DNA of 64,000 bases, taken from Isoetes taiwanensis. Lineage: Eukaryota > Streptophyta > Lycopodiopsida > Isoetales > Isoetaceae. A model generated the notes under the pieces. The model had not been told where the DNA came from, searched no databases, and was given only the letters and a program-made list of their open reading frames with translations. The stretch spans positions 4,090,623-4,154,622 of the forward strand of contig JAJEKV010000027.1 in the NCBI GenBank assembly GCA_021234155.1. Direction: 5' to 3'. The translations under genes and the position numbers were made by a program. Positions 13,976-54,235 of this stretch are shown here, piece by piece; the stretch's first letter is position 1, and the number at the start of each line of letters is the position of its first letter.

Positions 13976-16648
13976 TATAAAATTACTTGGATGTACCCCC
14001 ATCATATAGATTGTCTATATACTCAAACGAATCTAGGCCGTTTATTTGAAAAGCGGTGAGGTGGCAAAGTTATAGCCATTGGATCTCCATGGGGGGGCAT
14101 GCATGGGGCATGCACCACATCCATGGACCGTTGGATTAAAAGGGGAGGAGAAATCCTAGCCCTTGAATTCTGTGAGGAAGGTGCAAGGAAGGTGCCAAAA
14201 AGTGGATTTGGTGTAGTAGATCTCAGCCGTTAGATCAAAAGGTGAGCATAAATCCTAGCCATTAACCTTTTAATATTAAATTGATTTTTTTTTTTAAAAG
14301 AAGGTGAGGTGGCACCTTCATTAATAAAAAGGTAATGAGGTGGCAAAAGCATTTATCAAGGTGGACTTTCTAGGAAGCTTCTTTTTATTTAATCACATTC
14401 AAAGGCATGTAGCTTGCAAAGGGAGGGGGCTCTGGATGAAGGTGGGACCCACGCCATTGGATTCCTCTCGTCGAGAGCTTTCCAATGAGTGGTGCTTTGG
14501 CACCGCAGCTACAGCCAATGTGATTGAATACTAAAAATCTTCTTGGAATCTTTGAGTTTCAAGGAATCTATGGTAAGTTGAGGGAATCTAGGAGAATCTT
14601 CATAGGATGTTAGGGAATCCAGAGGAATATCATGAGAATCTTAGAGAATTTATGGGAATCCAAAGAGAGCATCTTTGAGAATGTGTTTAATCTAAGGGAA
14701 TCTTGATAAAATCTCTAAGAACCTAGAGGAATCTTGATGGAATCCTGGGGAGTCTAGTGGAATCTTCATAGAATCTATGGGAACTAGAGGAATCTCAAGA
14801 GAATCTATAGGAATCTCAAGCATTTCTTTCAGAATCTAGGGAATCTTGATAAAATCTTCAAGAACCTAGAAAAATCTTAATGGAATCTTAGAGAATCTAG
14901 AAGAATCAAAGAGAATCTTGATAGAATCTTGGAGAATCTAGTGGAATCTTGGGGTATTCTTTTGGAATCTAAGTCAATCTTTAGAGAATCTTAGGGAGTT
15001 TCAAGTGAATCTTCGGGAATCTAGGAGAATCTAAAGGAATCTTCATAAACTCTTTAAGAATCTATGGGAATCTAGATGGAATCTTGGAGAATCTTGGGTG
15101 GGGAATCTTCGTAGAATCTTAAGAATCTAGGGGAATCTTTGTAGAACATTAAGAATCTAAGAGAATCTTTGGGAATCTAGGAGAATCTCAAGATAATGTT
15201 TGGAAATCTAGGGAAATCTTCCTATTTTTTTTGAGAATCTAAGGGAATCTTAATGGAATCTGAGAGAATCTAAGAGAATCTTCATAGAATCTTGAAGAAT
15301 CTAGAAGAATCTTCATAGAATCTTGGGGAACCTAGAGGAATCATGGGATAATCTTTAGGAATCTAGGTGAATCTTAGGGAAGCTTAAGAGAATCTATGGA
15401 AATCTAGGAGAATTTAAGGAAATTGTCATAAAATCTTTAAGAATGTATAGGAATTTAGATAGAATCTTGGAGAATCTAAGGGAATCTTAATAAAATCTCG
15501 AGGAATCTCCATAGAATCTTAAGAATCTAGGGAATCTTTGTAGAATCTTAAGGAATCTAAGAGGAAATCTAAGGGTATCTACGGGAATCTTGGTGCAATT
15601 TTGTAAAATCTAGAGGAATCTTCATAGGATCTTAGAAAATCTAGAGGAATCTCAAGAGAATCTTAGGGATTCTAGGGGAATCTTTTTACAATCTTGAAAA
15701 ATCTAAGAGAATCTACATGGTTCAAGATAGAATCTTTGAGAATGTAAAGGAACCTAAGGGAATCTTGATAAAATCTTTAAGAACCTAGAGGAATCTAGGG
15801 GAATCTTCATATGATCCTTGAGAATCTAGAGGAATCTCAAGAGAATCTTAGGGATTTTAGGGGAATCTTTATTGAATCTTGAAAAACCTAAGAGAATCTA
15901 AATGGACTCTTGAAAAATCTAGAGGAATTTTGGGATAATCTTTGAAAACCTAGGGGAATCTCAAGAGAATCTTAGAAAATCTAGAGAAATCTTTGAGTAT
16001 CTTGAGGAATCTTGGAGAAACTAGGGGAATCTTCAGAGAATCTAGGAGAATCTACATAGAATATTGCGTAATCTAAAGGAACCTTGGGCTAATCTTCGTA
16101 AATCTAGGGGAATCTTTGTAGAATCTTAAGAATCTAAGGGGAATCTTTCACGTTGGGTGTGTTTTTAAGGGTCGGCTTCATGCAGTCCCTCATCTAGGTG
16201 AATCTTAAGAATCTACAAAAATCTTTCACACTAAGTATGTTTTGCATGTTCGGCTTCACATTGTCCATCATGGTATGAACATTATATAATGACTTTTGAT
16301 GGATTTTCATCAGATCCTTATGGAATACAGATACATAAAACTTGTGAATAAACATGGATTGGAAATTTGCCAACCTGACCGAGCTAGACAGGGCTTCACA
16401 TGGTAGATGGCTAAAAGGACAGGTGAATCAGCCTCAGATCCTAGAGTCGTTTCATGAACATTGTCCGGCTATCGAGTAAGCGGTTCAATCCTTACATCAC
16501 TGGAAACTTTTATCTGCTTAGATTCTTGCAGGTTCTTTGCACGCAATGTCATGGACCTTAACGATGATGCCTCATATATCGACTGTCTACAATCCTCAAA
16601 ACATATACATTCAACTTCGTACAGACCCTACATAGTACAACCACTTGT
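13976..16648. mobile_element. F4 left arm (diverged foldback element, outermost nest)
   Basis: It begins AAAATTACTTGGATGTACCCCC after a short TA tract. It contains CATGCATGGGGCATGCACC, CAGCCGTTAGATC and GTGAGGTGGCACC, the same subterminal vocabulary as F1-F3, then a GAATCT array from 14,530 to about 16,150. The inner end carries GGTCGGCTTCATGCAGTCC and CATAGTACAACCACTTGTA, then (TA)n. The matching right arm begins at 53,127 with TACAAGTGGTTGTACTATG and then GACTGCATGATGTCGACC. The array is more diverged than in F1-F3, so F4 is older. Confidence 0.75.
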
Positions 16649-16785
16649 ATATATATATATATATATATATATATATATATATATATATATATATATATAT
16701 ATATATATATATATATATATATATATATATATATATATATATATATATATATATATATATATATATCTATATATATCTATATATT
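16649..16785. repeat. (TA)n tract, left half of the F4 central cassette
   Basis: About 137 bp of TA preceded by TAGTACAACCACTTGTA. The partner flank TACAAGTGGTTGTACTA is at 53,132-53,150, so everything between has been inserted here. Confidence 0.9.
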
Positions 16786-18424
16786 CAAAAGGCTGGCATA
16801 GGCAGAATGTAACACTAGAGATGTATTTTCTTAATTGAGCACCTTATGGTGAAGGTGACAATGGTGCATTTGAGAACCTTATGGTTAAAGCCACATCATG
16901 ATTTTGATGCAACTACTTGTAAAGAATACACATTGGGTGTATAGCATTCCCTGGTCTTGGACAGTATCACAGATATCCATAACTAGGCTTGCAGGTTGGT
17001 AGATAACCTTTGAGTTCTATATTTATACACATATGGGCATAGCACCCTATTCCCCTCTAGGAATCTTCATTTTTAGCCATAGAAGGATATCACAAATGAA
17101 CTTTTTTATTCTAACAATGATTAGAAAATGACATCAGGCAGGTGACTAGACATTTAAGATTTATATCCTAGTAGATTTCTTTCCCAAATGGCATTTTATA
17201 TGGCCATATGGTTCATGTGGCAATTCATGGACACGTGAGAAATTTTTAATTACCATAGCATATACACTTTCATTGACTTATATAAATTTTCAAGGGAGCA
17301 TACGGATTGGCATTATTATTGTGAGACATTTTGCATGTAAGGGCCCACTTCCATAACTTTTGGATCTATGTGTAAATTAAATGGCTTTTTCTCTAGGTTT
17401 TGCCCTTGCATGCAATGCTTTTTTGCATGCATGTTTGACATGTGTAAGCTTGTTGGCTTGCATGTACTTCCTATATCTATGCATGCCTTGCCATGATATA
17501 GTTTGCCTCCATAAAATATGGGCAAGACGTTGGATGTCATGATCATTTAGAACATGGCTTTATTCGTGCATGTTTATGCATGCTTGACTACGTACACATT
17601 GGATGCCATAGGGCATCTTACACTAAATATGAATTTTTCCTTTGTCCAAAGTTCTAGAGATTGCGTAGATTTTTTATGCATGACTTGGTACCTTTGTATT
17701 TATCTTTTATACGCTAAAAGATACGCGGATCTTTGACGAAGAGCATACTGCAAACCTAAAATGCTAGTTTAGGTTTTGATGCCGCCAGCCATTGCCGTGA
17801 AGGACGCTTTGAGCGCATCGCACCGATCTTACTTGTACTGGGGGATTTGATTCCAAGCATTATTCTCACCGTGATGTTTGGCACGCTTTGAAAAGTCTAC
17901 ATGGATATGACCTCCAGACCGGTAATTTCTCACACTTCTATCTTTTTCTTTTGCATCCTGATCGCTTCAAAGCCCAAAGTGATCAATCTTGCATTAGATG
18001 AGCAGGAAGAAATTATTCTCGCAAGAATTTTTTCAATGACCTAAGCCTTGGTTATCGCAGAGAGTGTTGCACCATGCTCGATAATCTCCATTAATGCCAA
18101 TGCTCTACCGCACAAGAAAAAAACCTCATAAATTTTGTTGGAACAGAGCATCACACGCTTCTTGCGCATGGCATCTTGCGTGGAACCGCCATGTACATTT
18201 TATTTATTTTCCTTGTGATCAAGCTTTGAGCATTGAAGATCTGTCACTATGAATCATGTGATTTTTGCCTTTTCTCGAGAGAAGCACTAGGCTTAGAATT
18301 AAAGGATCTTCCAATAATGGCCCTAAAGGATGGCCTTGAATCGAGGTTCCTATAGAAAGCTTGTGCAAAAGCATTTCCCTTACAAAGGAACCGTGCATCT
18401 ACACCGTTAGTTTTGTTTGAATCT

Positions 18425-52712: not shown

Positions 52713-53126
52713 ATAAAAGTTTTAAAAGCCTTTCCTTAAAGGATGAGCATTCAACGTGGGCCGTCGGATCTTGGACCCGATCAAGGGCCGAGATCGTGCC
52801 ATGTGGCAAAAATCTAAAGCAACATGAGCCGTAGGATCCTAGATTGACGATCAAGATTAAGAACAACCTGGACCATAGGATCGATTACATATAATTCCCA
52901 AAGCCATGTGCACCGTAGGATGTGTCCCAAAACAATGTGAGTCGTAGGATCTCGGACCGACGATCAGGATCAAATCAACCTGGACCGTAGGATCGCTTAC
53001 ATATATAGTCTATACACAAACTCCCAAGCCATCTGGGCCGTAGGATACGTCCCAAAGCCACGTGAGCCGTAGGATCTCGGATCAACGGTCGGATTTAGGA
53101 GGACAAACATAAGAACATATATATAT

Positions 53127-54235
53127 CAGATATATACAAGTGGTTGTACTATGAAGGACTGCATGATGTCGACCCTGCAAAATACATCAGTGTGGAAGAT
53201 TTCCCTACATTGTCCCAAGATTCGCCTAAAGATTTCCCTTAGATTATACGAAGTCATAGATTCCACCAAGATTCTCATAGATTCTCAAAAATTCTCTCAT
53301 GATTCAGATAGATTTTCCAAGACGATATGTAAATTTTCCTAAATTGTTTAAGATCCTATCAAGATTCCCGTAGATTCTTAGATATTCTATGAAGGTTCTC
53401 TAGATTAACTAAGATTTTCTTCAGATTCCTTTGGATTCCCAAAGATTATCCCAAGATTCACCTAGATTCGGCATGATTCTATGTAGGTTCTCTTGGAGTC
53501 CCTTAGTTTATATGAAGATTCTTCTAGATTTTCCAAAATCCCAGCAAAAAACCTAGATTTCGAAAGGTTTTATGAAAATTCCTTTAAATTTTGTTAGATT
53601 TTTTGAGGATCCCCTTAGATTCTCCAAGGTTACATCAAGACTCCCCTAGATTCTCAAAGATTCCATCAAGATTTGCCATGTTACACAAAAATTCTCCTCT
53701 AGATTCTCAAACATCCTATGAAGGTTCCATGGATTCTTATAAATTCTCTCGAGATTCTTCTAGATTCCCAAAACTTGATCCAGATACATCTAGATTCCGA
53801 CAATTCTATGTACATTATATTGGATCTCCTTAGATTTCATGAAGATTCCTCTAGATTCTATAACATTCCATAAAGAGTCTCAAAGTGTCACTTGGATCCT
53901 ACAAATATTCTCTTAGATTCTCTAAGATTCCACCAACATTCCCCTAGATTCTCGAAGATCCCATAAAGATCATCTAGATTCCCAAAGATTCTCTGAAGGT
54001 TCATGTATGTTACCCGACATTCTATGTAAATTATCTAAAATTTTATCAAGATTCTCTTAGATCCTCAATATTTTATGAAGATTCCTATAGATTTCCATAG
54101 ATCCTACTGAGACTTCGAAAGTGCCTAAGGTCCTTCCCCTAAACTCTCTTAAATCACTATAAGTTTTATAAGATTATAAGATTCTAGGAAGCCTCATAGA
54201 ATATGATCACATTGGCTCTAACAGCACTTACACCC
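53127..54235. mobile_element. F4 right arm
   Basis: It starts TACAAGTGGTTGTACTATG, the inverse of the F4 left inner end. An AGATTC array to about 54,190 follows, then AATATGATCACATTGGCTC, the inverse of the left-arm start AGCCAATGTGATTGAATACT. The outer subterminal part seen on the left (CCGTTAGATC block and end) is absent, so this arm is truncated. Confidence 0.7.

Follow-up and report, generated by a model that had tools for sequence, protein, structure and literature searches.

The systems described so far that come closest to the locus reported here are the SaTars of guayule, rice, sorghum and citrus, elements of about 0.2-1.9 kb tied to MULEs by their TIRs and TSDs, whose families are chained through (TA)n microsatellites; in the portions of the article available to us, no SaTar is found interrupting another, and some chains show deletions that removed satellite together with element ends (PMC5907723). 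The same portions count Micron of rice, an element of about 380 bp that targets (TA)n, as a non-nested rSaTar (PMC5907723). In pineapple, the Ac-mMITEs (MITEs of 210-570 bp) form clusters that the accessible text states to be non-nested (PMC8449440), and in Medicago, MuTAnT elements are described, in the sections at hand, as mostly 200-300 bp long, with 9-bp TSDs, a transposase-bearing relative (AutoMuTAnT) and twenty copies with nested insertions or rearrangements (PMC4486113). For published (TA)n-linked arrays, non-nestedness has been used, in the available passages, as an argument for an unusual insertion mechanism.

Here we analyse a 64-kb stretch of the Isoetes taiwanensis genome (C1031:4,090,623-4,154,622, hereafter the window), chosen as odd, together with a stretch of C2 chosen for its TA runs and a search of 1,658,258,908 bases of the genome. 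Several kinds of transposons have accumulated here inside and next to each other, chiefly at TA repeats borne by the elements themselves. Two further groups enter the comparison: the Chlamys and Naiad Penelope-like elements (PLEs), which combine an N-terminal endonuclease with a CxC motif upstream of the RT, a tandem arrangement of units and a microsatellite-biased insertion, and the FB/Galileo-type foldbacks of Drosophila, with arms made of short tandem repeats. We know of no (TA)n centre in Drosophila FB.

Architecture of the TA island

The locus is a TA island: the window contains 428 (TA)16 hits, 141 times the genome mean, and the 198,378 bp downstream contain none, against 9.4 expected. 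Its features are (strand given where assigned):

1-2017, + strand: PLE-B, cut after GGAAAATATAT, with protein similarity to PLE-A
2018-2218: (TA)n with two F-type inner-end scraps (ATGCAACTACT(C)ATAGTAC), between PLE-B and F1
2209-5308, + strand: F1 foldback, empty (TA)n centre at 3424-3551, 95.6% identical to F3 over the whole element
5330-8685: K1, 3.35-kb unclassified element with (TA)n on both sides, 95% identical to K2
8795-10652, + strand: F2 foldback, centre at 9994-10097, with a right arm cut short at a TA tract
10857-13953, + strand: F3 foldback, empty (TA)n centre at 12078-12211
13976-16648, + strand: F4 left arm (F4L), inner end CATAGTACAACCACTTG, after which (TA)n runs from 16648 to 16766
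16,785-20,464: X, 3.7-kb unclassified segment between two TA tracts in the F4 centre
20,607-21,931, + strand: H left arm (HL), outer to inner, inverse alignment with HR
21,933-28,575, + strand: PLE-A copy 1, direct tandem
28,595-35,234, + strand: PLE-A copy 2, RVT_1 match at E 3.7e-5 and 24 bits (Pfam cut-off 29.6)
35,292-37,870, + strand: PLE-A copy 3, consisting of the 2.6-kb terminal region alone
about 37,876-51,745 (13.9 kb): G, inverted ends TATATATACAATTA, own cassette at 41,441-41,549
51,746-53,126, - strand: H right arm (HR), inner to outer, inverse alignment with HL
53,127-54,235, - strand: F4 right arm (F4R), outer ~0.54 kb missing
58,390-61,742: K2, between (TA)n 58,290-58,389 and (TA)n 61,743-61,770
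61,771-64,000, - strand: PLE-C, RT fragment, with part of a second copy beyond the window

Read in order, the arms in the window make up a balanced bracket with matching families, F4(H(G)). Under a simple null in which arms are treated as independent, such a bracket of 12 arms arises in 0.00029 of random orientations, and in 0.00032 when the order is shuffled too, which counts for insertion at element centres and against a modular array of single arms (see below). Most of the nested anatomy proposed in the first-pass annotation is borne out (the H arms, the PLE array, G and its cassette), whereas the F4 arms match only partly. HL (20,612-21,931) and HR (53,136-51,744) are inverse copies from end to end, at 90.6% with gaps; a second alignment, which takes in some tens of bases of flank, shows identity in 1283 of 1344 aligned columns and has 142 columns with gaps. 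Their inner ~500 bp are nearly identical. As to the two F4 arms, likewise proposed to be inverse halves, F4L is the best inverse partner of F4R among six arms (local score 275 versus 107-173) and their innermost 22 bp are identical (CATAGTACAACCACTTGTATAT), but F4R measures only 1.1 kb against 2.67 kb, lacks a counterpart to the outermost ~0.54 kb of F4L and ends with the nearest TA run 1.1 kb off. The two arms agree in 75% of aligned columns (805 of 1069), and gaps are numerous within the GAATCT arrays; F4L obtains better scores against the F1 and F3 right arms (847 and 857) than against F4R. The earlier outline had included neither X, which shares the F4 centre, nor F1, F2 and F3, which lie outside the nest on its left side.

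Every junction had been placed at (TA)n. This holds for 25 of the 27 boundaries that we placed by hand, which lie at most 15 bp from a TA run (random points, mean 0.9 of 27; the comparison is partly circular, since boundaries were set by eye at TA runs), the exceptions being the left edge of X (19 bp) and the outer edge of F4R (1109 bp).

Paired arms or a modular array

F- and G-type elements share a plan of two arms with outer ends TATATATACAATTA, inner ends TAGTACAAnnACTTG and (TA)n in the middle. The arms are made of short tandem repeats with periods of 10, 21 and 31 bp, and F arms carry TATATACAA at both ends. It is conceivable, if somewhat unlikely, that each arm is an element of its own with TA ends (TATATACAA), and that arms, PLEs and G are strung together via (TA)n as in SaTar arrays, HL and HR being two independent insertions. 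The pairing of the F arms argues against such a modular array: the same left and right arms recur in F1 and F3 (95.6% over 3.36 kb, with different neighbours, while the left and right arms of one element are only ~71% alike) and partially in F2, long inverted arms moving as a unit, as expected of a foldback, being thus seen in two full copies and a partial one. Moreover, among 15 F-type inner ends scored by script in the island and C2, 9 face another inner end across a TA run (10 after correction by eye), one faces an F outer end, one an H outer end, and 4 (3) face X or an unclassified 6.7-kb segment; these are ends rather than independent pairs, two of them lie within a duplicated block, and the script overlooked two left inner ends, that of F2 and one at C2:629,311.

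Other observations favour the modular array, starting with the known SaTar and Ac-mMITE arrays, modular and non-nested according to the accessible texts. G has inverted ends and the (TA)n cassette first ascribed to it (TAGTACAAGGACTTG(TA)nCAAGTCTTTGTACTA at 41,441-41,549, with an empty centre), but it resembles a foldback only weakly, its halves being alike only at their short ends (50 bp at 80%, plus nearby 33- and 49-bp matches). In C2, F-type left arms face G-type right arms. Further evidence comes from H arms that stand alone or in direct tandem.

We examined the best 10 of 40 scored H copies, a non-random set from 2513 first-look candidates in the genome. In 5 of these 10, the outer H end has an arm-inner-end motif alongside, with CTTGTATAT at most 75 bp away (background, 6 occurrences in 198 kb with both strands counted). 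By eye, these inner ends are F- or G-like at L030, L031 and L034 (from a short motif only at L034) and H-like at L032 and L035, where tandem joints are as likely as nests. L031 (contig C1025) reads F-type inner end, H arm and G/F-type outer end, while any closing arms would lie beyond the fetched stretch. A sixth copy, L027, has lost its outer H end but is flanked by an F-type arm that shares 89.7% identity with the L031 one over 291 bp. At C2:617-628 kb, two F-type arms in inverted orientation enclose a 6.7-kb segment that has a TA run on either side, and a G-type inner end lies outside them. Elements lying within the (TA)n centres of others, as initially claimed, are thus seen both in the window and at other loci.

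An adjacent inverted H partner occurs in only 2 of the 10 copies (L027 and L035), and both partners belong to a more distant H type (about 77-82% to the window arms, versus 88-99% for the queried arms). Direct tandems of H arms are found at L030, at L034 (three arms, the third cut by the end of the stretch) and at the right edge of the island. Given the scarcity of inverted partners and these several direct tandems, there is no clear case for H as an obligate foldback element. Nesting predicted that the double H at L030 would close with right arms; contrary to this, 3.85 kb of its continuation showed no right arm. Copies with empty centres, also looked for, are present in the window (F1, F3 and G), but an empty-centre H with both window-type arms was not found among the copies fetched.

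Penelope-like elements and their junctions

The three tandem PLE pieces reported at first pass are 97.5-98.6% identical, in direct orientation and separated by TA runs of 19 and 57 bp, and the array adjoins an H inner end. We provisionally take these tandem RT units to be PLEs; 3 of 10 ORFs scanned have RVT_1 matches (E 3.7e-5, 3.4e-4 and 0.08), all under the curated cut-off, and the Pfam scan gave no endonuclease (GIY-YIG) match among the ORFs scanned. A candidate AT-hook at the PLE N-terminus (MAGRPEGSQNKG, copy 3 only) was set aside as it has no Pfam support. X has a single match, ~125 bp long at 74%, in the terminal region of PLE-A. We also dropped K as a possible 5' part of the PLE, the small ORFs of K and PLE-A giving no blastp match.

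A tandem copy of PLE-B 6.6 kb upstream (92% over 2 kb) runs without interruption through the site at which the window copy is cut next to F1, and has just AAAATATAT there, so that (TA)n can appear together with an insertion or later than it. The proposal that (TA)n tracts serve as landing sites accordingly agrees with the elements seated at (TA)n centres but not with this site. The lost 3' part of PLE-B was not refound in the window, in 209 kb rightward or in the C2 stretch, the only weak match being the PLE-C RT.

The Pfam scan detected no transposase, of mudrA type or other, in 76 of 80 ORF fragments from G and 54.2-58.3 kb (the four left out span G's TA cassette); matches were a BAHD transferase fragment and marginal DUF6498 (E 9e-4) and YMF19 (E 7.7e-3). 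The window contains no tRNA genes and no Rfam match at gathering thresholds to self-cleaving or other known RNA; 22 permissive matches, many in TA runs, include no ribozymes.

Proposed growth of the island

We lean towards an island built by repeated insertion, at TA runs, of at least three kinds of elements: F/G foldbacks, H and Penelope-like elements. Besides the points on H and PLE-B above and the absence of a transposase match among the fragments scanned, it counts against this explanation that target-site duplications are unreadable within TA repeats and that G adjoins the PLE end (TTGTCTATATC) without a long TA run. A transposase, possibly MULE-like, and the PLE machinery may both prefer TA runs; alternatively, the target might be the hairpin or break that a TA run in the middle of a palindrome would form. 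New (TA)n would come from every foldback, as its centre, and from every PLE unit, as the (TA)n joint that links it to the next in tandem, so that insertions would create further landing sites and the island would grow inward and sideways. Exchange between (TA)n tracts may later have removed arms, which would account for mismatched pairs and arms standing alone, and perhaps for direct tandems.

Rearrangement alone, with (TA)n tracts, chiefly at palindrome centres, breaking and recombining into a mosaic by end joining via TA microhomology, would explain the mismatched pairs (F-left with G-right, two H types), the truncated arms (F2R, F4R and L029) and the tandem H joints of L034, where inner ends are lost. 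We consider it improbable, since elements retain the same ends at many junctions and one H outer end adjoins several different neighbours across loci. Long TA runs are hard to place in an assembly, which counts for an artefact. Even so, nanopore contigs falsely joined across (TA)n are a very improbable source of this structure, because the window contains no N, like junctions recur on other contigs and the TA runs at the HL-PLE (12 bp), G-HR and HR-F4R (about 10 bp) joins are easily crossed by a read, despite the use of minimap2/miniasm, Bionano scaffolding and gap filling stated in the available part of the genome report (PMC8566536).

A probable nested form of TA-linked arrays

The locus is, in our best reading, a nested variant of TA-microsatellite-linked arrays (SaTar, MuTAnT, Ac-mMITE), joined here by Penelope-like retroelements. 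As in SaTars, so far as the accessible text describes them, several families flanked by (TA)n are chained through it; by contrast, the elements here are 3-14 kb long, with internal (TA)n hosting others, retroelements included, and the rule that arrays are never nested fails in the window, in C2 and at other H loci. Its nesting keeps us from classing the locus among the SaTars, which it nevertheless resembles in the way it works; a modular array would reverse this. The available descriptions also show likeness to Ac-mMITEs in (TA)n targeting and in clusters joined by almost pure (TA)n (PMC8449440), and to MuTAnT in a foldback that is built from long inverted repeats and sits in (TA)n (PMC4486113). 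Micron, as described in the portions at hand, shares the (TA)n target but is short and non-nested. By description, the short tandem repeats of the arms recall FB/Galileo. The PLEs appear to resemble Chlamys and Naiad in the traits given above (CxC motif, tandem units, microsatellite bias), but differ in the lack of a Pfam endonuclease match in the ORFs scanned.

In titles and abstract openings of the open-licence literature, we found no description of a nested (TA)n array with PLEs. (TA)n targeting and (TA)n-linked chains are already in print; since the published chains are described, in the parts available, as non-nested, the new part is the nested, two-class form. Elements with their own (TA)n centre predict nesting exactly there, and this is observed here, apparently for two element classes. 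Quite tentatively, and with rather less than even confidence, DNA transposon and retroelement systems may share a landing-site economy, in which foldbacks would spread (TA)n at easily broken or nicked palindrome tips, where other foldbacks and Penelope-like elements (possibly without endonuclease and needing ready-made ends) would insert, islands growing by centre-directed nesting. Nesting at (TA)n centres offers transposon islands a way to expand for which the host need supply no new landing sites, and a genome with so many first-look H candidates, most of them not scored, offers a setting for testing whether sequence or DNA structure guides insertion.

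Apparent nested arrangement of the arms at TA runs

In the window, TA runs join foldback arms, H and putative Penelope-like retroelement (PLE) units, several of these joints lying in foldback (TA)n centres, and for H and the F/G types such joints are also found at other loci. Read as brackets, the arms give the order F1() F2() F3() F4( X H( PLE PLE PLE G() H) F4), in which X and the PLE array occupy centres as side tenants. Components inside the F-type element F4 include:

16,785-20,464, X, 3.7-kb unclassified segment
20,607-21,931, left arm of H
37,876-51,745, G, 13.9-kb element
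51,746-53,126, right arm of H

Under a simple null that takes the arms as independent, a balanced and matched string arose in 0.00029 of trials with random orientations and the order kept, and in 0.00032 with families pooled and the order shuffled; the six nest arms alone were balanced and matched in 0.0053 and fully nested in 0.0011.

The genome searched comprised 1,658,258,908 bases in 1110 contigs, the window corresponding to C1031:4,090,623-4,154,622. The assembly report describes 1658.30 Mb in 204 scaffolds plus 909 unplaced contigs, assembled with miniasm from nanopore reads, with Bionano scaffolding and gap filling (PMC8566536). Of 18 TA tracts of at least 20 bp in 283 kb around the window, 15 are inside it and 3 in the next 8 kb, with none in the remainder of the 283 kb. 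The window holds 428 (TA)16 matches, 141 times the genome mean, an enrichment that describes the locus and not the genome, since the window was selected as unusual; in the 198,378 bp that follow window coordinate 75,000 there are 0 (9.4 expected). A TA run lies no more than 15 bp away from 25 of 27 hand-placed boundaries (random points average 0.9), a figure that overstates the case because TA runs guided boundary placement; the main BLAST ends of the self-comparison coincide with these boundaries. The first-pass annotation had placed every junction at (TA)n, which describes those 25 but fails at the left edge of X (19 bp from a TA run) and the outer edge of the F4 right arm.

F-type and G foldback elements

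F1, F2, F3, F4 and G have in common the outer ends TATATATACAATTA or close and, around (TA)n, the inner ends TAGTACAnnnACTTGTATATA or close. Between the two inverted TATATATACAATTA ends of G, 50 bp are alike at 80%, and the (TA)n cassette that G had been proposed to carry is indeed present inside it as TAGTACAAGGACTTG(TA)nCAAGTCTTTGTACTA. No transposase was detected in the 76 of 80 ORF fragments scanned from G and the 54.2-58.3 kb stretch. Empty centres measure 128 bp in F1, 134 bp in F3 and 109 bp in G; the F2 right arm has lost a part at a TA tract. F1 and F3 have different neighbours but are 95.6% identical along the whole element, both arms and centre included; within one element, the two arms are only ~71% alike, which argues that the unit that moved is the arm pair.

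The arms of F4 had been described as matching inverse halves. The left arm is the best inverse partner of the right one among six arms (score 275 vs 107-173 for the others), and they share the inner 22 bp, but the match is not full-length: the right arm spans 1.1 kb vs 2.67 kb for the left, 805 of 1069 aligned columns match, and the right arm lacks the outer ~0.54 kb; no TA run lies closer than 1.1 kb to its outer edge. Paired with the right arm of F1 or F3, the left arm scores higher (847 and 857) than with its own partner. Other features of the arms and their surroundings are:

2045-2062 and 2131-2149, remnants of F-type inner ends in the TA tract that precedes F1, which may be the trace of an earlier, lost F element
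2722-3335, 14883-16147 and 51934-52264, arm arrays with periods of ~10, 21, 31 and 41 bp, similar to those of Drosophila FB arms
55246-55773 (-), BAHD-type acyltransferase gene fragment (PF02458, E 5.7e-7), a short way outside the F4 right arm

H arms and PLE units

The H arms are inverse copies, as first proposed: self-comparison pairs 20,612-21,931 with 53,136-51,744, and a global alignment has 142 gap columns and finds identity at 1283 of 1344 aligned columns. Two H arms stand in direct tandem at 71.9-74.5 kb, where the island has its right edge, with an H-type inner end ahead of them. Both window arms contain TTCTAGAA arrays (21186-21275 and 52473-52551), which presumably resemble heat-shock elements.

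The three tandem PLE pieces between the H left arm and G (PLE-A) were confirmed as direct repeats at 6.66 and 6.70 kb spacing, the third being 2.6 kb long. PLE-B, at the left edge of the window beside F1, is also in tandem (window 1-2009 and an upstream copy, L001 3019-5021, at 6.6 kb spacing). At the point beside F1 where the window copy breaks off, the upstream copy reads AAAATATAT, uninterrupted; therefore, no microsatellite was there before insertion. Neither the 283 kb around the window nor the C2 stretch described below yielded the lost 3' part of PLE-B. G adjoins the PLE end TTGTCTATATC, with no long TA run at the joint. The N-terminal ORF of the third PLE-A copy begins MAGRPEGSQNKG (36289-36330), a start like an AT-hook; copies 1 and 2 differ there, and Pfam lends no support to an AT-hook at this N-terminus.

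Related arrangements elsewhere in the genome

A search with the outer 541 bp of H turned up 2513 first-look candidates; scoring covered 40 of them and listed 41 matches, and the ten best copies outside the window (L027-L036) were fetched and classed by script and by eye. The inner-end motif CTTGTATAT lies within 75 bp of the H outer end in five of these ten (L030, L031, L032, L034 and L035), against a background of 6 in 198 kb on both strands. The inner end beside H looks F- or G-like at L030, L031 and L034 (at L034 by short motif only) and H-like at L032 and L035, which may be tandem joints; L028, L029, L033 and L036 have other neighbours there. L027 is devoid of the H outer end, and its adjoining F-type arm matches the arm beside H in L031 at 89.7% over 291 bp; since their H arms differ in type, the two appear to be independent insertions into the same kind of F centre.

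On the inner side, an inverted H arm follows across TA runs of 14 bp (L027) and 142 bp (L035), so that only two of the ten best copies have an adjacent inverted partner, in both cases of a more distant type. The next H arm has the same orientation at L030 and L034; L034 has three in tandem, the last of them running off the end of the stretch. L028, L032 and L036 continue into other sequence, and the H arm of L029 is truncated. At L033 the next element, from position 1997, begins ATTATTAGGAGTGGCTTC, as does a further element in the downstream flank (window coordinate 68473, in L002); both stand behind a TA tract. L031 (C1025:16,627,150-16,630,650) has an F inner end, H and a G/F-type outer end, and thus repeats the left half of the F, H, G order seen in the window, the half that the fetched stretch covers. 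The right arms predicted for a closed nest after the 138-bp TA run of L030 were absent from 3.85 kb more. Against the nested reading, to which a modular array is the alternative, count this absence, the rarity of inverted partners, the direct tandems of H arms, the PLE-B site, the PLE/G joint and the lack of a transposase among the ORF fragments scanned.

A second TA-rich stretch, C2:601-641 kb, taken from the first TA-rich places listed, contains the same arm types as the window, in the order G-type inner end, 85-bp TA run, F-type left arm, TA run, 6.7-kb segment, TA run and inverted F-type arm. Farther along, a duplicated block measuring 6.8 kb or more has two places at which a TA run separates an F-type left arm from the G-type right arm that faces it. 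The segment in the centre of the F-type pair is:

C2:618706-625429 (L024-L025), 6.7-kb unclassified segment flanked by TA runs

Proposed mechanism and comparison with known arrays

We infer an insertion preference for TA runs, or for the structure that they form at the palindrome tip. Each insertion would supply new landing sites, and arms may later have been lost through exchange between (TA)n tracts. According to a 2025 review, nested LTR elements in plants favour palindromes, and microsatellites may act as landing pads (PMC12477314); both statements are compatible with such a mechanism but are no test of it. As here, (TA)n links the elements of SaTar arrays (PMC5907723) and those of Ac-mMITE clusters (PMC8449440), but both are stated in these reports to be non-nested; MuTAnT, described as a foldback MULE family targeting (TA)n, includes 20 copies with nested insertions or rearrangements (PMC4486113). 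Nesting is possible in Isoetes taiwanensis because the elements carry internal (TA)n, and it is this property, together with the apparent participation of retroelements, that sets the present system apart from published (TA)n-linked arrays.
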